Part shown: positions 3,070 through 33,345 of the stretch, in pieces
Layout: every line of letters begins with the position of its first letter
How positions within the stretch are numbered: the stretch's first letter is position 1
IMG/VR virus record: IMGVR_UViG_3300034374_006526
Location: 1-38,540 of that record
DNA length: 38,540 nt
Strand: one strand, 5' to 3'
Source: a virus
Made by a program: the position numbers and the translations under genes
The notes under the pieces: model-generated
What the model was told of the DNA's origin: nothing
Seen by the model: the letters and a program-made list of their open reading frames with translations, nothing else
Databases searched by the model: none

Positions 3070-5919
3070 ATGGCATCAACAGACAGAATTTTTGTAAGTC
3101 CAGGTGTATTCACATCAGAGAAGGACTTAACATTTGTTACGAGACAAGTCGGTGTTACAACGTTGGGATTGTTGGGAGAAACTCCTAAAGGACCTGCGTT
3201 TGAACCCGTATTTATCTCTAACTACGATGAGTTTATTAGTTACTTTGGTGGACTTAACACAGAAAAGTTTAAGGGAACAGGTTACCAAAAGTACGAACTA
3301 AACTATATCGCCAAATCATTTTTAACTCAAACTAATCAACTATACGTAAGTAGGATTTTGGGTTATTCGGGGTATAAAGCGGGTGATGCATGGTCAATCA
3401 CATTAGACTCCGCAGAGGATCCTGACACAGTAGGAAGTGCGGGAACGGCAACTTATACAGGTGGGACACAACCACTTTTAACCTACACCGCAGAAACAAC
3501 GGGAGCACCAGTCTCTTTAACTTGGGCAGACGCAAATTTAGAAGCGTTATACAATGACGGACAATTTTCATTATCGACATTAGGACTATTAGACGTAGGA
3601 CAAGTTATTTCTGAGTCCGATCCAGTATATGTTAAAACAAATTGTGACTTTAGTGGGGCAACTTTTGATATGGAAGTAACTGCAACAGGAACAAGTGGAA
3701 GTTATGTAACTGGTACTACAAGTGGTACGGTTGTTAGTTATACCGCAACTTGTTTAACAGACATAGATGGTAGTGTAATTGCAACTTTGAGATCGAGAGG
3801 TACTTATAACGCAGATGAGGAGTTAGTATTTGAAGTTACTGGTAATTCAGCGACAATGAGTAATACTACAAGTATTGCGAGTAACGCATTAGCATCGTTT
3901 ACTATCGGTGGTACCGCAACAAACGGTAACACATTTAGTTATGATGTATCTATGGACAGAACTAAAAAGAATTATTTACCTAGAGTATTCGGTTCTTCTA
4001 CACAAGATAAAGAAACTGAATTATGGGTTGAGGAAATATATGAGAATGTGTTAGTAGATTTAATCGCTAAAGATCAAGTTAGAGGTTTGGATGTAACTTT
4101 CAACACTATTAGTGGAGATTCAACTAATAATTTAAATAATTATCAAGAACAATGGAAATCAGCGGCTTCACCTTGGGTACTTTCAGAACTAATGGGTACA
4201 GGATCAGGTGCAACTTTACAAAGACTATTTAGATTCATTACAATATCTGATGGTAACGCAGCGAATGAAGACGTTAAATTCTCAATTGTTAATATCAGAC
4301 CTGACAATAGAACATTTGACTTATTAGTTAGAAGTTTTAATGATACTGACGCTAACCCATCAGTAGTCGAAAAATTCTCAAATATTAGTTTAGATGTAAA
4401 CGCAACAGGATTTATCGGAAGAAAGATCGGTACTTCTAACGGAGAATATCCATTGAGAAGTAGGTATATTATGGTTGAGTTGTATGACGAAAACGACCCT
4501 AGTTTAGCAAGTAGAGTACCTGCAGGATTCGAAGGGGTATTAAATAGAACATACATTGGAAGTAGAACTTCTCTACCACCAAAAATTGAATATAAAACAC
4601 AATACCCAACGTCATTGACTACCGCACAATTAAGAAGAACTTATTTAGGTTTAAATTCTGAAATTGGTGTAGATCAAGACTTCTTTGATTACAAAGGTAA
4701 AAACGCAGTTAACAACGGTGTATATACAGGAAAAACAGATGGTTTCCACTTAGACGTAAACGCAAATGGTGCGGAAGTTAATTTAGGAGATGATAGTTAC
4801 GTCCCAACATTACAAGTTGGTGTATCTGCTTTTACTAACGATGCTAGTTTAGTGGGTGGACCTTATGAAAGATTATCAGCTAGAAAATTCACATTCACAT
4901 CATTCGGTGGATGGGACGGATGGGATGAATACAGACTACAAAGAACTAATACGGATAATTATACTAAAACTGGTTCTAAAGGTTCTCTTGGAGAATCAAA
5001 AGGAGTATTCTCATCATTTGTAACAACTGAAGGTGATCAAGGAATCACTTCTGACTATTACGCATACTTAAACGGTATTTACACTTATAACAATCCTGAA
5101 GCGGTTAACATTAACGTATTCGCAACACCAGGTATTGATTTAAGAGATAATATTGGATTAGTAGATAACGCAGTAGATATGGTAGAAGTTGATAGAGCGG
5201 ATTCACTTTATGTTATTACAACACCTGATACTGATAGTGATGGACAAGCAATTACACCAGACGAAGCGGTAGACATTATAGAAGATTCGGCAATCGATTC
5301 TAACTACTCCGCTACATACTGGCCGTGGTTACAGATGAATGATACAGAAAATAACAGATATGTATGGTTACCACCTACAGTAGAGGTTATGAGAAACATC
5401 GCACTTACCGATAATGTAGCGTTCCCTTGGTTCGCAGCAGCAGGTTTAAATAGAGGTACAACAAACGCAATCAAAGCGAGAGTGAAACTTAAATTAGATG
5501 ATAGAGATGACTTATACGAAGGAAGAATTAACCCAATGGCGACATTCTCAGATGTAGGAGTTGTAATCTTCGGTAATAAAACTTTACAAGTTAAAGAAAC
5601 CGCACTTAACAGAATCAATGTTAGAAGATTGTTGTTACAAGCGAGAAAACTTATTTCAGCGGTGTCAATCAGATTGTTATTCGAACAAAATGATGATGTT
5701 GTAAGAAATCAGTTCTTAAGTTTGGTTAACCCAATTTTGGATAACATTAGAAAAGAGAGAGGTTTAACTGACTTTAGAGTGGTATTAGATGATACACCAG
5801 AGTCTATTGATAGAAACGAACTTAATGGTAGAATATTTATTAAACCAACAAGATCGTTAGAATTCATTTCGATTGAGTTCAACATCACTAACACTGGAGC
5901 ATCTTTCGATGATATTTAA
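3070..5919 (+). CDS. Contractile tail sheath protein (T4 gp18-like)
   Basis: A 949-residue sheath subunit. The N-terminus (FVSPGVFTSEKDLTF, then TTLGLLGETPKGPAFEPVF and a DEF-x-x-YFGG motif) is the classic start of T4-type sheath proteins. The C-terminal third has the conserved core: AVDMVEVDRADSLYVITTPD, the WPWLQMND strand, a VPPTVEVM-like segment (LPPTVEVMRNIALTD), N-P-M-A-T-F, a two-helix segment ending RKERGLTDF, and a terminal strand FISIEFNITNT that forms the sheath lattice handshake. T4 gp18 has about 660 residues. The extra length here is largely a beta-rich, Thr/Gly/Ser-rich block at about residues 110-300, probably an inserted surface domain. The gene is followed by a strong terminator, so it is a single-gene transcription unit. 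The identification is firm; the role of the insertion is not known. Confidence 0.95.
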   Translation: MASTDRIFVSPGVFTSEKDLTFVTRQVGVTTLGLLGETPKGPAFEPVFISNYDEFISYFGGLNTEKFKGTGYQKYELNYIAKSFLTQTNQLYVSRILGYSGYKAGDAWSITLDSAEDPDTVGSAGTATYTGGTQPLLTYTAETTGAPVSLTWADANLEALYNDGQFSLSTLGLLDVGQVISESDPVYVKTNCDFSGATFDMEVTATGTSGSYVTGTTSGTVVSYTATCLTDIDGSVIATLRSRGTYNADEELVFEVTGNSATMSNTTSIASNALASFTIGGTATNGNTFSYDVSMDRTKKNYLPRVFGSSTQDKETELWVEEIYENVLVDLIAKDQVRGLDVTFNTISGDSTNNLNNYQEQWKSAASPWVLSELMGTGSGATLQRLFRFITISDGNAANEDVKFSIVNIRPDNRTFDLLVRSFNDTDANPSVVEKFSNISLDVNATGFIGRKIGTSNGEYPLRSRYIMVELYDENDPSLASRVPAGFEGVLNRTYIGSRTSLPPKIEYKTQYPTSLTTAQLRRTYLGLNSEIGVDQDFFDYKGKNAVNNGVYTGKTDGFHLDVNANGAEVNLGDDSYVPTLQVGVSAFTNDASLVGGPYERLSARKFTFTSFGGWDGWDEYRLQRTNTDNYTKTGSKGSLGESKGVFSSFVTTEGDQGITSDYYAYLNGIYTYNNPEAVNINVFATPGIDLRDNIGLVDNAVDMVEVDRADSLYVITTPDTDSDGQAITPDEAVDIIEDSAIDSNYSATYWPWLQMNDTENNRYVWLPPTVEVMRNIALTDNVAFPWFAAAGLNRGTTNAIKARVKLKLDDRDDLYEGRINPMATFSDVGVVIFGNKTLQVKETALNRINVRRLLLQARKLISAVSIRLLFEQNDDVVRNQFLSLVNPILDNIRKERGLTDFRVVLDDTPESIDRNELNGRIFIKPTRSLEFISIEFNITNTGASFDDI

Positions 5920-7272: not shown

Positions 7273-7299
7273 AAAACCCATCGATCGATGGGTTTTTTT
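7273..7299 (+). terminator. Palindromic terminator
   Basis: A 24-base perfect palindrome (AAAACCCATCGA and its complement) runs directly into a T tract. It closes the small membrane-protein cassette. Confidence 0.85.
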
Positions 7300-15943: not shown

Positions 15944-16714
15944 ATGGAAAATACAATGGATCCAAATTTCGTACCTGATGAATATAAGGTACCTTATGAT
16001 GTTATAGAATTACCCTCACAGGGTTTATTATACCCCAATAAGAAAAGTAGTGTTAAAATAGAATATTTAACCGCTATGGATGAAAATGTTTTATCTTCAC
16101 CAAATATATTAGGCACAGGTAAAGTATTAGATGTTTTAATAGAAAGGAAAGTAAAAGATTTGGGGTTCCCTGTTGATGAATTATTAGAGGGAGATAGACT
16201 AGCAATCATAGTATTTTTAAGAACAACTGCTTTCGGTGTAGAATATAAACAGGCAGTATTAAACAGTAAAAACGAAGTAGTTGAGGGTACTATAGATTTA
16301 TCTAAACTTGAACAAAAAAAATTAATTATAAAACCAGATGAGAAAAACGAGTTTGACTTTGTTTTACCACAAAGTAAAAAAAACATAAAGTTTAGGTTTT
16401 TAAATTCTAAAGATGAAAAAGATATTTTAGAAAAAGATGAATTTACTAAGAAAAAATTCAATACTGAAGTTTCATTTTACAGTACTTTAAAATTGGGTAA
16501 AATGATTATGGAAATTGATGGGAATAGAGATAAAATGGCAATAACTAATTTTATCGAAAAAAAGATGACTATTATGGATAGTAGAAAATTAAATAAATAT
16601 ATTTCTGATAATGAACCAGGATTAAAATTTGAAACAATTGCGCGGACTGAGGGGGAGGAGTCCGTAAATTGCTTTCTTAGACTGGGAAAATCTTTTTTCT
16701 GGCCTGAATTCTAA
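15944..16714 (+). CDS. Baseplate/tail-assembly protein (T4 gp26-like), zero-frame product
   Basis: A 256-residue protein. Its start (PYDVIELPSQGLLYPNKKSS, then a K-I-E-Y-L-T-A-M-D-E-N segment) matches the opening of T4-type gp26 baseplate proteins, which run from 'ELPSKGLLYP' to a 'LTAKEE'-like block. The mid-region motif E-G-D-R-L-A-I-I-V-F-L-R-T-T-A-F-G-V-E-Y is the other hallmark. The rest is mixed, with a helical segment around 175-230. In this class of tail clusters the protein before the tape measure helps build the hub and the tail length machinery. The last 13 codons overlap a +1-frame open stretch that continues for 46 codons, so this is likely the shorter of two products. It begins behind a candidate late promoter. 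Confidence 0.75.
   Translation: MENTMDPNFVPDEYKVPYDVIELPSQGLLYPNKKSSVKIEYLTAMDENVLSSPNILGTGKVLDVLIERKVKDLGFPVDELLEGDRLAIIVFLRTTAFGVEYKQAVLNSKNEVVEGTIDLSKLEQKKLIIKPDEKNEFDFVLPQSKKNIKFRFLNSKDEKDILEKDEFTKKKFNTEVSFYSTLKLGKMIMEIDGNRDKMAITNFIEKKMTIMDSRKLNKYISDNEPGLKFETIARTEGEESVNCFLRLGKSFFWPEF
16643..16664 (+). promoter_or_regulatory. G-rich stem-loop, candidate frameshift stimulator
   Basis: CGGACT (16643-16648) pairs with AGTCCG (16659-16664). The loop includes GAGGGGGAGG, a strong Shine-Dalgarno-like run in a genome that otherwise avoids G. The codons used are GAG GGG GAG GAG, where the phage normally prefers GAA and GGA. It lies 8 bases before the TGC TTT CTT stretch at 16673. Confidence 0.5.
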
Positions 16715-16847
16715 TTATATATCATCAATAATAAAAGAAGTTTTTCATTTAGTTAAATATGGTAATTTCACATATAGTGACATTATGATTATGCCTACAT
16801 ATATGAGAAGAAACTTCCTATCACAACTTTATCCTGATAACGAATAG
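16668..16847 (+). CDS. +1-frame extension of the gp26-like gene (candidate programmed frameshift)
   Basis: A 59-codon reading frame, open from just after a TAA at 16665 to a TAG at 16845, in the +1 frame relative to the gp26-like gene. It encodes LDWENLFSGLNSN, SIIKEVFHLVKYGNF and DIMIMPTYMRRNFLSQL. A helix, then 'L-V-x-Y-G-x-F-x-Y', then 'M-P-x-Y-x-R-R-x-F' is the pattern of tail-assembly chaperone C-termini. The frame has no ATG before position 16785, so independent translation would lose most of the domain. Possible slip sites are TTT C at 16673-16676, where tRNA-Phe can re-pair by +1, and the T run at 16693-16698. Either gives a fused product of about 300 residues. The gene lies directly before the tape-measure region, where frameshifted G/GT-type genes are usual. 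Confidence 0.6.
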   Translation: MAFLDWENLFSGLNSNYISSIIKEVFHLVKYGNFTYSDIMIMPTYMRRNFLSQLYPDNE

Positions 16848-16890: not shown

Positions 16891-17595
16891 ATGAATATAA
16901 ATGAGCATAATAAACTAATTGATGAAATTATAAGTGAGATAGATTATATTTTAGAAAATAAAAGTAAAAAACCAATTAATGAGTTTATTGGTTTAATTAA
17001 GACAGGTGTACAACTATTTGGACCCAAAATAGTTAATTCTATTTTGGATGCTGGTGGTACAGAATTTTTAAAACAAAAAATTAAAAACAGTATTTCATTA
17101 AAAAATATTAATGTATCTAGAGAAATTAATGACTTATTAAACACTAGACCTTCAGTTGTTGATGTAGACTCTGAGGTTGAAAAACAAAAAAGAATATATC
17201 AAGATATTATAAATAAAACATCTGGTAATTTTTCAGATGAGTATGATAGTAGTGACACATATAGTGATATAGAATATGGGTACAGTGAAATTAAGATAAG
17301 ATTTAAAGACGATTTTAAATTGGAATTAGTTGCAGATGTTAATAAAAAATATGATTTAAATTATAAATATGGACAAAGAGATAAATTTAATGTATTGACT
17401 ACTAAAAAAACTTCTCAAGGGTACATACTCAACTTAGATAATAATGACTTACAAAGAAATGTTAGTTTGTTATTATATATAGACAATTTTAAAACTTCTG
17501 GTCAATTAAGGTGTAGTTTACAATTAACATACAGAAATGGTGCATATAATGGAAATAGAGTTTCTGGTGATATAGAAATATTAAGTTTAAGATAA
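16891..17595 (+). CDS. Unknown tail-cluster protein with helical start
   Basis: A 234-residue protein between the gp26-like gene and the tape measure. Residues 1-30 form an acidic amphipathic helix (NKLIDEIISEIDYILENK). The following K-P-I29-N-E31-F also meets the (I/L)-x-E rule, although this N-terminus belongs to neither tag family. Residues 34-60 are mildly hydrophobic (IGLIKTGVQLFGPKIVNSIL). The C-terminal half is a beta-rich domain (YSEIKIRFKDDFKLELVAD, then LLLYIDN, then RCSLQLTYRNG). No family is recognised. Its place suggests a tail-completion or chaperone function, or a further member of the putative packaged set. It has a candidate late promoter of its own. Confidence 0.6.
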   Translation: MNINEHNKLIDEIISEIDYILENKSKKPINEFIGLIKTGVQLFGPKIVNSILDAGGTEFLKQKIKNSISLKNINVSREINDLLNTRPSVVDVDSEVEKQKRIYQDIINKTSGNFSDEYDSSDTYSDIEYGYSEIKIRFKDDFKLELVADVNKKYDLNYKYGQRDKFNVLTTKKTSQGYILNLDNNDLQRNVSLLLYIDNFKTSGQLRCSLQLTYRNGAYNGNRVSGDIEILSLR

Positions 17596-17613: not shown

Positions 17614-19677
17614 ATGTCAGTACAAGATGCAATAGATATTCTTTATGGTACAAAAACAGGTGATAAAGATGATGCTAGAAAGACACTAGAAAATTATGTT
17701 TTAAAATCTACAGAAGATCTTGAAGACGCACAAAAAAGAGTAAATCAACAATATAAGAAATCTAGTGACTTATCTAAATCAATTTTAGGTGATTGGGAAA
17801 ATACAAACAATGTACTTAAATATGTCGCAAATCAACAATATTCTGTTTTAATAGATTCAGTTGCTTGGTTAAAAAATACTAAAGAACAATATATTTATGC
17901 AGAAGGTATTGCTAAAGAATATAAAAAATTAGGTAGAGATATAGGTTTAGGTGCTGCACAATCAAAAGCACTAGCAGACAGTTTTAAAGAATCATTACCC
18001 GCCTTTGCTAAGTTAGGTTTAGACGCTGATGATTTATCGTCAACATTAGAGTCAATTTCAGATAGTAGTGGTAGATTTAAAGGGTTTTTCCCCAAAGAAG
18101 ATACCGAAAAAATGGCACAGATGATAGCAGGTTTAGGTATGTCATCTGAATCCGTAGGTGAATTAACTGATAGATTTGATTTAATGGGTGTTAGTGTTGC
18201 TAGAATGTATGAAGGTATTTCGGAAGTATATGGGGACTCACAAGCTTTAGGTTTAAACGCAAAAAAGGTTACTGATGTATTAGAAAGAAATTTTGCTTCG
18301 ATGCAAAGAATGTCATTTAAAGGTGGGGTTAAAGCAATGACTGAAATGGCTAAATTAGCGGTAGATATGAGAATGGATGTTGCTGATATGTTAGGTATGG
18401 CAGATAAATTCTATAATCCTGAAGCTGCGATAGAAGCGGCAGCAGAACTACAATTAATGGGTGGAGATATTGCAAAGGCATTTGGTGACCCTTTTGAGGT
18501 TATGTATATGGCTAGAAATAAACCAGAGGAATTAGCTAAAAAACTCGAAGAGATGACTCAAAATATGACAGTATTTAATGAGGAAACTGGCGAATACACT
18601 TTACCTGCAGAGGCTAAACAACAATTAACATTTATGGCAGATAAATTAGGTTTATCAAAAGACAATGTAATTGATATGGCTTACCAAACGTCAAAACTTA
18701 AAGATATAAAATCTGCTTTTGATGGAACTAGTATGTTTAGTGAAGAAGAACAATCTGCAATTGCATCTATGGCTAAATTTAATACGAATACAGGTAAATG
18801 GCAAGTTGAATTTGGTGGAGAAAAAATTGAGCTAGATGATAGTGGTGCTTTAAGATCCGCAGTAGAAAATGGTATGTTAACTACACAACCTGATGAAGAC
18901 CCTATTAAACAAACTGCACATGCAACTCTTACAACTTCTGAAATCGCAAAAAACACATTAGAAGAAATAAAAGCACAAACTATAGCAACGGTAGACTTAT
19001 ATAAAACTTTAGAGGCTGGTTTAGTTAAACCACAAAATGAATTAACTACATTATTAACTGATTTAGTTAGTAATACTGGTGATTTGTTAAAAGATGAAGA
19101 TGTTGTTGGTAGTGCCATTGCAGATTTTATGAAAAATCCTGAAGTAAAAGCAAAAGAACTAGGTGATGAAATTGCAACTCAAATTAATTATTTAAACAAT
19201 AATATAAACGCCTTATTTAGTGGAGATGAAACATTACTAAGTTTATTAACAACACAATTTCAGTTATTAAATAATAATTTAACTTCAATCGCAAAGGGAG
19301 GTACTTCAATACCAACACCAGACGGTATTATGACACCTGGTGGAAATAGTTTAGTTAGGATGCCTAAAGGTACTATGTCTGCGGTAATTGAACCAGATGT
19401 TAATGACTACGCTTTTTTCATACAAAAAGATAAAGTTACTAAAGGTGGTGATAAAACAACTACAACTAATAATAATACCAATCAAACTACAACTCAAAAC
19501 GTTAATTTTAACGCCACTATTAAATTAGAGTCTAATAATCCTTCTTTAGATTTATCAGGTATGGAAGATACAATATCAAAAACTGTGTCTAATATGTTCT
19601 TAAACGCTAAAGGATCAATTGACGGAAATAATACTTCAAAAAGTAACCGAACTATGGTTAGTGGAGGAGTATTATAA
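17614..19677 (+). CDS. Tail tape measure protein (T4 gp29-like position)
   Basis: A 687-residue, mostly helical protein. It contains long heptad-like stretches (about 15-110) and a conserved helical core (QSKALADSFKESLPAFAKLG, MIAGLGMSSESVGELTDRFD, then MQRMSFKGGVKAMTEMAKLA). These resemble the central segment of phage tape measures in T4-like marine phages. An Ala/Met-rich stretch follows at about 240-300. The C-terminal 100 residues are Asn/Thr-rich with a terminal strand-helix (NFNATIKLESNNPSLDLSG). With about 1.5 angstrom per residue a tail near 100 nm would result, close to T4. T4 gp29 has 590 residues. The place after the gp26-like gene and before baseplate genes supports the call. No obvious transmembrane helix is seen. 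Confidence 0.75.
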   Translation: MSVQDAIDILYGTKTGDKDDARKTLENYVLKSTEDLEDAQKRVNQQYKKSSDLSKSILGDWENTNNVLKYVANQQYSVLIDSVAWLKNTKEQYIYAEGIAKEYKKLGRDIGLGAAQSKALADSFKESLPAFAKLGLDADDLSSTLESISDSSGRFKGFFPKEDTEKMAQMIAGLGMSSESVGELTDRFDLMGVSVARMYEGISEVYGDSQALGLNAKKVTDVLERNFASMQRMSFKGGVKAMTEMAKLAVDMRMDVADMLGMADKFYNPEAAIEAAAELQLMGGDIAKAFGDPFEVMYMARNKPEELAKKLEEMTQNMTVFNEETGEYTLPAEAKQQLTFMADKLGLSKDNVIDMAYQTSKLKDIKSAFDGTSMFSEEEQSAIASMAKFNTNTGKWQVEFGGEKIELDDSGALRSAVENGMLTTQPDEDPIKQTAHATLTTSEIAKNTLEEIKAQTIATVDLYKTLEAGLVKPQNELTTLLTDLVSNTGDLLKDEDVVGSAIADFMKNPEVKAKELGDEIATQINYLNNNINALFSGDETLLSLLTTQFQLLNNNLTSIAKGGTSIPTPDGIMTPGGNSLVRMPKGTMSAVIEPDVNDYAFFIQKDKVTKGGDKTTTTNNNTNQTTTQNVNFNATIKLESNNPSLDLSGMEDTISKTVSNMFLNAKGSIDGNNTSKSNRTMVSGGVL

Positions 19678-31375: not shown

Positions 31376-32284
31376 ATGAGTAACAGTTTAGATGCTATTT
31401 TGGCTCAGTATGAAAAAAACACTGAACCAACTAAAAGTGGAAACAAAATGTCGAGTGAAGACAGACTTAAAAAGTATTTCACAGAAAAATTACCTAAAGG
31501 GGTAAAAACACAAACAAAAACTTTCAGAATCTTACCTACTAAAGACGGTAAGTCTCCATTTACTGAAGTTTACTATCACGAAAAAAATGTAAACGGAAAA
31601 TGGGAAAAAATCTATTGTAACCATTTAAATGATGGTGAACATTGTCCATTATGTGAGGCGAAAGATGCTTTATATGAGGATGGATCTGAGAAAGCTAAAA
31701 ACTTAGCAAAAGAATTTATTCCTAGAAAATTCTACGTAGTTAAAGGAATTGATAGAGAGAATGAGGATCACGGAGTTAAGTTTTGGAGATTTAAACACAA
31801 AAAGACAGGTGATGGTGTTATGGATAAATTAATTCCTGTGTTTAAACTTAAAGGTGATATCACTGATCCTAGAGAGGGAAGAGATATTATTATTTCTTCA
31901 GGTAGGAATGATAAAGGTCATAGTGTAGTTAATTCTATTATGGCGGATGATGTAACTATTCTTACTGAGAATAAAGAATATGCAAACGAATGGTTTAACA
32001 ATGAAGAATCACACAAGGATGTATACGCTAAAAAGTCTAATGAATATTTAGAAATTGTAGCAACTAATAAAACTCCTATTTGGGATTCTGAACAAAAGAA
32101 GTTTGTTGCAGAAGAAGATAAAGAAGAAAAAGAAACTGCTTCATTGTCAGAAGAAATCAATATGATGAGAACTGAAACTACAAAATCTTTTGAGTCAGAC
32201 TATAACAATGATGACGATGATGAGGATTTTGATAATGATGTTGAGGTATCATCCTTAGACGATGACGATGAATTACCATTCTAA
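31376..32284 (+). CDS. Single-stranded DNA-binding protein (T4 gp32-like)
   Basis: A 302-residue protein, the same size as T4 gp32 (301). A zinc site is visible: H68, C81, C90 and C93, spaced 12, 8 and 2, against H-12-C-9-C-2-C in gp32. The N-terminal basic helix (residues 1-45) is the self-association region, the middle is the OB-like DNA-binding core, and the last 30 residues are very acidic (DDDDEDFDNDVEVSSLDDDD) before a final ELPF. In gp32 that acidic tail recruits helicase-loader and polymerase partners. It heads the replication cluster behind a host-type promoter, with recombinase and 5' nuclease next. The identification is confident. Confidence 0.9.
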   Translation: MSNSLDAILAQYEKNTEPTKSGNKMSSEDRLKKYFTEKLPKGVKTQTKTFRILPTKDGKSPFTEVYYHEKNVNGKWEKIYCNHLNDGEHCPLCEAKDALYEDGSEKAKNLAKEFIPRKFYVVKGIDRENEDHGVKFWRFKHKKTGDGVMDKLIPVFKLKGDITDPREGRDIIISSGRNDKGHSVVNSIMADDVTILTENKEYANEWFNNEESHKDVYAKKSNEYLEIVATNKTPIWDSEQKKFVAEEDKEEKETASLSEEINMMRTETTKSFESDYNNDDDDEDFDNDVEVSSLDDDDELPF

Positions 32285-32292
32285 TTGATGAT

Positions 32293-33345
32293 ATGGCGAA
32301 ACAACCACTAAAGAAAAAAGCATCTGATTTTTCGTCTATAAGAAAGAAGTTTTCCTCTAGTGATAAGTACAAAGAACAAAAGTACTTTGACCTAGGGGAA
32401 GCCTTTCAGAAGGCGACAGGAATACCAGGTCCTGCTATGGGTCAGATTAACATGCTTTTAGGACACTCAGATACTGGAAAAACAACCGCACTAATCAAAA
32501 CTGCGGTTGATGCACAAAGAAAAGGTATCTTACCTGTTTTTATCATTACAGAACAAAAATTTAGTTTTGAACACGCTAAACAAATGGGTTTAGAAACTAA
32601 CTACGTTGAAGAGGTTGATGAAGAAACAGGTGAGGTTATCGGTTATTGGGATGGATTTTTATTATATAAGTTAGGGTTTGATTATATTGAACAAGCATTT
32701 GACTATGTAACAGAAGTTCTAAACGCCCAAAAAAATGGTGAGATACCACACGATATTGTGTTTTGTTGGGACTCTATTGGTACAATTCCTTGTCAGATGA
32801 GTTATGAAGGAAAAGGAGGTAACCAACACACTGCAAGAATTATATCGGAAAAATGGGGTATGGGTATGGCTCAGAGAATTACATCTTCTCGCAAAGTCAC
32901 ATCTGAATACACCAACACTATGGTATTTGTAAACCAACCTTGGGTAGAGTTACCTGATAATCCATTCGGACAACCTAGAATACAACCAAAGGGAGGACAG
33001 TCAATTTACTTATCTTGCGCATTAGTGTTCTTATTCGGAAATCAAAAAAGTTCAGGTGTCTCAAAACTAAATGCTACCAATAAGGGTAGAAAAGTTAATT
33101 TTGCGATAAGAACTAAAGTAGGTATTCATAAAAACCATATGAATGGTTTGGGTTACGCGGATTGTAAAATTCTCGCAACTACACATGGATTTGTTGAAGA
33201 CGATAAGAAATCAATTGATCAATATAAAAATGATTATAAAGATTATTGGGCAGAAGTTTTTGACTCGGTAGGTGATGATGTTATGTCTTTTGATGTGATT
33301 GAAGGAGATATGATAGAGACACCCGTTGATTATTCAGATAATTGA
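32293..33345 (+). CDS. RecA-like recombinase (T4 UvsX-like)
   Basis: A 350-residue RecA/UvsX-type ATPase. The Walker A motif is G57-H-S-D-T-G-K63-T-T. A Walker-B-like strand is DIVFCWDSIGTIPCQ. The L2-like region includes a TNTMVFVNQPWVELPD segment and a GGQSIYLSCALVFLFGN strand, typical of UvsX. T4 UvsX has 391 residues; this one is shorter, mostly at the C-terminus. It promotes strand exchange and recombination-dependent replication together with the gp32-like protein immediately before it (8-base gap). Confidence 0.9.
   Translation: MAKQPLKKKASDFSSIRKKFSSSDKYKEQKYFDLGEAFQKATGIPGPAMGQINMLLGHSDTGKTTALIKTAVDAQRKGILPVFIITEQKFSFEHAKQMGLETNYVEEVDEETGEVIGYWDGFLLYKLGFDYIEQAFDYVTEVLNAQKNGEIPHDIVFCWDSIGTIPCQMSYEGKGGNQHTARIISEKWGMGMAQRITSSRKVTSEYTNTMVFVNQPWVELPDNPFGQPRIQPKGGQSIYLSCALVFLFGNQKSSGVSKLNATNKGRKVNFAIRTKVGIHKNHMNGLGYADCKILATTHGFVEDDKKSIDQYKNDYKDYWAEVFDSVGDDVMSFDVIEGDMIETPVDYSDN

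Follow-up and report, generated by a model that had tools for sequence, protein, structure and literature searches.

A stretch of 38,540 nucleotides (nt) of viral DNA, positions 1 to 38,540 of the IMG/VR virus record IMGVR_UViG_3300034374_006526 (hereafter the window), appears to encode two forms of a tail-assembly chaperone in one gene. We propose, with a probability of roughly 87% on the comparisons described below, that a programmed +1 frameshift in this gene yields both a short protein resembling gp26 of phage T4 and a protein of roughly 300 amino acids (aa) resembling T4 gp51. Comparison with related sequences shows a conserved overlap of two open reading frames (ORFs), the location of the shift, compensatory base pairing and homology to gp26/gp51. 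The elements of the locus are as follows:

15944-16714, + strand: gp26-like gene in frame 0, short product of 256 aa, placed in the T4 gp26 family by its relatives' matches to phrog_150 and by its predicted fold.
16643-16664, + strand: 5' hairpin, made of CGGACT (16643-16648), the loop GAGGGGGAGG (16649-16658) and AGTCCG (16659-16664); 6 base pairs, or 7 with the G-U pair 16642/16665.
16651-16660, + strand: G-rich, Shine-Dalgarno-like run in and beside the hairpin loop, conserved in the clade alignment; its role is putative.
16665-16667, + strand: TAA stop in the +1 frame, directly 5' of the +1 ORF in the sequence; upstream limit of the shift.
16668-16847, + strand: +1 ORF of 59 codons, gp51-type C-terminal domain by hhalign to the gp51 C-terminus and by helical prediction.
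16673-16678, + strand: putative shift site TTT CTT (UUU.C to UUC, +1), invariant in 32 of 32 clade members.
16691-16705, + strand: TCT TTT TTC TGG CCT, homologous in position to the slip motif TTTTTTTGGCCT of the wider family; an unlikely shift site in the window.

An original prediction, made from the letters of the window alone, had described a 59-codon +1 frame without a usable start, and both this description and its coordinates match the sequence: no ATG, GTG or TTG stands ahead of the MIMP motif, which itself lies deep inside the domain. Its remark on odd codon choice is borne out by the rare CGG (0.8% of Arg codons), TCC (3.3% of Ser), GGG (8.5% of Gly) and CTT (8.8% of Leu) in this window of 30% GC. 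On the - strand, a 155-aa ORF (15994-16461) lies antisense to the gp26-like gene and is probably an effect of composition. In the mechanism that we propose, most ribosomes would terminate at 16712-16714 and release the 256-aa gp26-like protein. Some, with tRNA-Phe on UUU (16673-16675) and CUU next, would slip onto UUC and read on UUA-GAC and beyond, adding 56 aa (16677-16844) after Phe244 and bringing the fusion to about 300 aa. This fusion would contain the junction peptide ...VNCFLDWENLFSGLNSNYISS... and carry a small helical domain that corresponds to the T4 gp51 C-terminus. The frameshift event, its efficiency, the mechanism of the hairpin and the chaperone role are what we infer from the comparisons.

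By homology, the frame-0 product is a member of the T4 gp26 family and the second ORF a gp51 C-terminal domain. Relatives at 29-32% identity match phrog_150 ('baseplate hub') at E values of 1e-8 to 1e-18, and T4 gp26 and gp51 both match this profile, gp26 stopping at position 235 and gp51 reaching 280. Using hhalign, the gp26 family aligned with gp51 across gp51 residues 6-203 (E 6.7e-19), a virtual fusion of the two frames aligned through the gp51 end (E 7.7e-5), and the +1 domain alone aligned in register with the gp51 C-terminus (E 6e-4), which narrows the earlier guess of a tail-chaperone C-terminus to the gp51 C-terminal domain. In two relatives, L006 and L008, virtual fusion lengthened the phrog_150 match from 233 to 273-274 of 282. 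The 256-aa form was modelled by AlphaFold with a predicted local distance difference test score (pLDDT) of 92.5, its last strand ending at the shift residue Phe244, and in Foldseek it retrieved 'Baseplate hub assembly protein, bacteriophage T4-like' models (E 1e-11 to 1e-13); a fold search of the PDB with this short form gave no match. The added C-terminal domain is predicted to be helical (pLDDT 82.5), and the top Foldseek match of this small domain, a T4-like 'baseplate protein', was not significant. T4 gp26 and gp51, which are listed among the hub assembly chaperones (PMC3004832), are homologous to the window's products (phrog_150 / IPR024364): the end of gp26 coincides with the end of frame 0, and gp51 goes on into the C-terminal domain. 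In T4 the short gp26 and the long gp51 come from separate, paralogous genes and no frameshift is involved, whereas in the window a single gene would provide both forms.

Relatives gathered by tblastn and by IMG/VR searches span identities from 74% down to about 30% and include Microcystis phage Mel-JY01, Flavobacterium phage immuto and LR756508. Almost without exception, frame 0 ends in ...FFWPxx* and the overlapping +1 ORF encodes FGLxxEYR..LH.EI..LV..G.GF....VYNMPIxLRxFYxxKL. The window clade comprises 32 distinct protein-retrieved sequences (21 after clustering at 80%); members retrieved by pattern were excluded from the statistics, since the pattern fixes TTTCTTAGA. The wider family comprises 86 distinct loci, two of them on contigs that end before the +1 ORF can be judged. 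Counting distinct sequences, the +1 overlap is present in all 84 wider-family loci long enough to judge as well as in the 32 clade members. The original prediction was to fall if relatives carried one uninterrupted gene or had not conserved the second frame. No family member carries such a gene, and the frame is kept with three exceptions described below; in the alignment with relatives that it proposed as a check, the slip site and the G-rich loop are conserved and both frames are open across the clade. A sequencing or assembly error that broke one uninterrupted gene could be suspected from a single metagenomic contig, overlapping frames being a common signature of such errors, but >115 distinct loci, drawn from separate metagenomes and from the isolate genomes Mel-JY01 and immuto, show the identical break at the same place, which leaves this explanation a negligible likelihood.

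The three exceptions are natural contrasts that support frameshifting, since their slip codons have altered together with the arrangement of the domain. In L099 and L104 the TTT is lost (TTC TTG, TTC CTT) and the gp51-type domain has turned into a gene of its own that starts with an ATG. In L050 (2423-3259 and the next ORF) TTC TTC replaces TTT TTT, and the same C-terminal domain is in the -1 frame with a canonical A_AAT_TTC heptamer. This locus looks like a natural switch of shift direction; it is a single contig, so that a sequence error is possible. The separate genes of L099 and L104, together with the Shine-Dalgarno-like run 12-17 nt upstream of the site, could also be taken to mean that the second ORF is a small gene in its own right, whose translation begins within gp26 through that run or through translational coupling. 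We consider this improbable: in 20 of the 32 clade members and 32 of the 84 family members, the interval that reaches from 40 nt on the 5' side of the site to 45 nt on its 3' side contains no ATG, GTG or TTG, and the start codons found in the remaining members take no consistent position.

Of the two slip sites offered by the original prediction, one is TTT C (16673-16676) and the other the T6 run (16693-16698); the clade distinguishes between them. TTTCTT is invariant, followed usually by AGA and otherwise by AGG, ACA, ACG, AAC or CCC, and stops in the +1 frame cease there. On the 5' side of TTT such stops occur at chance level (16 seen, 17.2 expected from synonymous recoding), and 16/32 members have one at the position of 16665-16667 or just upstream; on the 3' side none is seen against 27.6 expected, or 7.8 with CTT itself excluded. 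A shift at the T6 run would agree with the wider family, which shifts at the homologous place with its TTTTTTTGG motif, and TTT is found there in all clade members. This late site nevertheless varies (TTT TTC, TTA TTT, ATA TTT, TTT TTA, TTT CTA, TTT TGG), and between the early and late sites all 32 members lack a +1 stop, where 7.8 would be expected. Since an invariant TTTCTT and an open +1 frame between both sites are unexpected under a late shift, we place the shift at TTT C and regard the T6 run as an unlikely site. Two other placements were discarded: a shift at the G-run is excluded by the +1 stop at 16665, here and in half of the clade, and a -2 slip by the inability of UUU and CUU to re-pair after moving back by two bases, whether in the window or in relatives with TTTCTTTGG or TTCTTTTGG.

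Across the 86 loci of the wider family, the slip place reads TTTTTTTGGCC(T/A/C) in 60, TTTTTTTACCCT in 14, TTCTTTTGG in 7, TTTCTTTGG in 3, and TTCTTTTACCCT and TTTCTATTC in 1 each. The +1 frame there often opens just 2 nt 5' of the slip run, which confines the shift to the stretch between this opening and the frame-0 stop. Most of the wider family has a T7 at the site, as would suit slippage of the RNA polymerase on a T run instead of ribosomal frameshifting. Polymerase slippage is nonetheless very unlikely to explain the overlap, as the shift of the window clade lies at TTTCTT, and the TTTCTTTGG, TTCTTTTGG and TTTCTATTC of other relatives have T runs of at most 4.

The predicted hairpin CGGACT/AGTCCG around a G-rich loop is present in the window, where its folding energy is -10.2 kcal/mol (z -2.4), and its stem shows compensatory changes in the clade. 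At least 4 of the 6 stem positions are paired in the same register in 27/32 members, with swaps from G-C to C-G, from C-G to U-A and from U-A to G-C or C-G. Several of these stem changes alter amino acids (ACT with GAG, ATT with GAA, ACG with GCG, ATG with GCA). In the clade pair count, 77.6% of cells are paired against 64.7% after shuffling, and both sides have changed in 17 cells against 6.8, values that 0 of 500 shuffles reach in either case. The best stem energy averages -8.0 kcal/mol in the clade and -1.6 kcal/mol in synonymous recodings. The stem mostly ends 7-9 nt before TTT, the spacing to the P-site codon in the window being 8 nt, and a conserved paired stem thus lies just 5' of the +1 slip site in this clade. 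The wider family has comparable hairpins 5' of its TTTTTTTGG slip site, with 3-5 nt between the end of the hairpin and TTT TTT (-4.1 against -1.8 kcal/mol; 23/70 at P<0.05). At codon -3, GGG is found in 35/55 wider-family sequences against 3.2 expected, a preference for which this hairpin probably accounts. A downstream stimulatory structure gave no signal (clade mean z +0.38; window fold z 0.16). By sequence comparison, the overlap, the slip codons and the hairpin exceed chance, being shared with distant relatives.

The hairpin is also a better candidate for the stimulator than the G-run. The Shine-Dalgarno-like character noted in the original prediction is conserved, but stimulation of +1 shifting by a Shine-Dalgarno sequence requires a spacing of 3 nt (PMC5009743), and the G-run stands 12-17 nt from the shift site, too distant for a stimulator of the prfB type. 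The prfB gene (release factor 2, RF2) likewise has a +1 slip at a pyrimidine-rich codon with a Shine-Dalgarno-like sequence upstream; its shift depends on an A-site stop codon in addition to the 3-nt spacing, whereas the window site has no stop. An upstream hairpin of 6 base pairs stimulates +1 shifting in yeast (PMC3639245). Small refolding hairpins 5' of the site are likewise known from the attenuator of severe acute respiratory syndrome coronavirus (SARS-CoV) and from T4 gene 60, where the 5' stem-loop is the proposed motor of bypassing (PMC5009743). We propose that the ribosome unwinds the upstream hairpin, which would probably re-form behind it, push it forward and block backward slips. 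In the literature searched, we found no earlier link between upstream refolding hairpins and tail-chaperone frameshifting.

Several observations weigh against the +1 frameshift as described here or soften its details. PHROG and Pfam searches with the window's own proteins returned nothing significant, and the family link runs through relatives. The sequences compared are related, so the statistics overstate their independence. The RNAalifold consensus across all 32 clade sequences is weak, owing to the five of the 32 that have a shifted or weaker stem. A slip of CUU.A to UUA would yield the same peptide as UUU.C to UUC; the latter is favoured by the invariant C after TTT. Finally, no tape-measure gene was recognised in the window.

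The same two pieces, in overlapping frames and at the same place, are found in the Kyanoviridae, there in a -1 relation with T_TTT_TTC at the junction. The most direct connection came from a phrog_150 search of reference genomes, which split the profile over two overlapping frames (4-234 and 227-281) in P-SSM2, S-PM2 and HTVC008M, the pieces being annotated in P-SSM2 and S-PM2 as gp26 and a 57-aa 'gp51'. Among 77 distinct marine relatives (this type comprises L283, P-SSM2; L284, S-PM2; L285, HTVC008M; and L288-L367), the junction is NNT TTT TTC in all 77, matching the canonical -1 heptamer T_TTT_TTC, with GAGGG 9 nt 5' of it, and the -1 frame is open across the heptamer in every one. The canonical -1 arrangement, X_XXY_YYZ with a second ORF in -1, does not apply to the locus in the window, whose second ORF is in +1. 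In most Kyanoviridae an ATG lies just 3' of the heptamer, as an independent start of the second ORF would have it; this ATG is missing in 12/77, and the codons ahead of it are conserved in the -1 frame, where the residue after FF is Arg in 74/77 while the frame-0 residue is variable. The Kyanoviridae gp26 and short 'gp51' therefore look like an unannotated -1 frameshift pair. Cyanophage gp51 was reported to lack its first ~200 aa, an observation left unexplained (Sullivan 2010, PMC3037559), and we found no report of a gp26/gp51 frameshift in the open-access literature searched (subscription papers and preprints lay outside its scope).

The window is assigned to a T4-like phage by its matches to a T4-type tail sheath (3070-5919, E 1.5e-58), a gp32-type single-strand binding protein (31376-32284, weak, E 4e-4) and a UvsX-like recombinase (32293-33345, E 2e-15). 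In the annotations of immuto and Listeria phage LIS04 the homologue lies between the tube and tape-measure genes, with the tape measure directly after it; immuto's copy is called 'baseplate hub subunit'. The original prediction had placed the shift ahead of a tape-measure region; in the window itself no tape-measure gene was recognised. Downstream of the chaperone gene, a 687-aa ORF (17614-19677), highly conserved in the clade and without a family match, is a candidate tape measure. A Pfam Peptidase_M27 assignment for 16891-17595 was rejected as almost certainly spurious (16.6 bits against a cutoff of 27, no HExxH in the ORF). A perfect intergenic GC-rich hairpin, ACCCATCGATCGATGGGT, lies at 7276-7293 and is unusual in this AT-rich window.

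Among known systems, the closest in function would be lambda gpG/gpGT, an analogy already drawn in the original prediction and kept here; by descent the locus belongs to the T4 gp26/gp51 family. Lambda gpG/gpGT, like P2 E/E' and the -2 shift of Mu, provides a short and a C-terminally extended form through a frameshift near the 3' end of a gene that precedes the tape measure, and the short and long forms of the window would probably cooperate on tape-measure and tube proteins in a similar manner. The window locus differs from it in its +1 direction, in having a 5' hairpin instead of a heptamer, and in its T4 gp26/gp51 descent. Listeria phage PSA and haloarchaeal HSTV-2 also use +1 frameshifting in a structural or tail gene of a tailed virus; in PSA the shifts occur at CCC, affect different genes (capsid and tail shaft) and involve a stop codon or pseudoknot.

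Where T4 has the separate genes 26 and 51, the T4-like viruses examined appear repeatedly to use a frameshift, in either direction. On balance we lean towards an ancestral frameshift from gp26 into gp51 in T4-like phages, kept as -1 in the Kyanoviridae (Shine-Dalgarno sequence and heptamer) and as +1 in the large uncultured family of the window (a refolding 5' hairpin, with no stop or rare codon). In T4 a gene duplication would have taken its place, and the direction of the shift would have switched at least twice at this one site. G-T frameshifting has been described as conserved in long-tailed phages 'except T4' (review PMC5009743); if this history is true, the exception would be explained by T4's duplicated genes. 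It would also account for the unexplained 'truncated gp51' of cyanophages and give gp26 and gp51 a common role. The window and its relatives would then represent a natural family of +1 sites with a conserved upstream hairpin, a kind of stimulator of which most known examples are artificial constructs.
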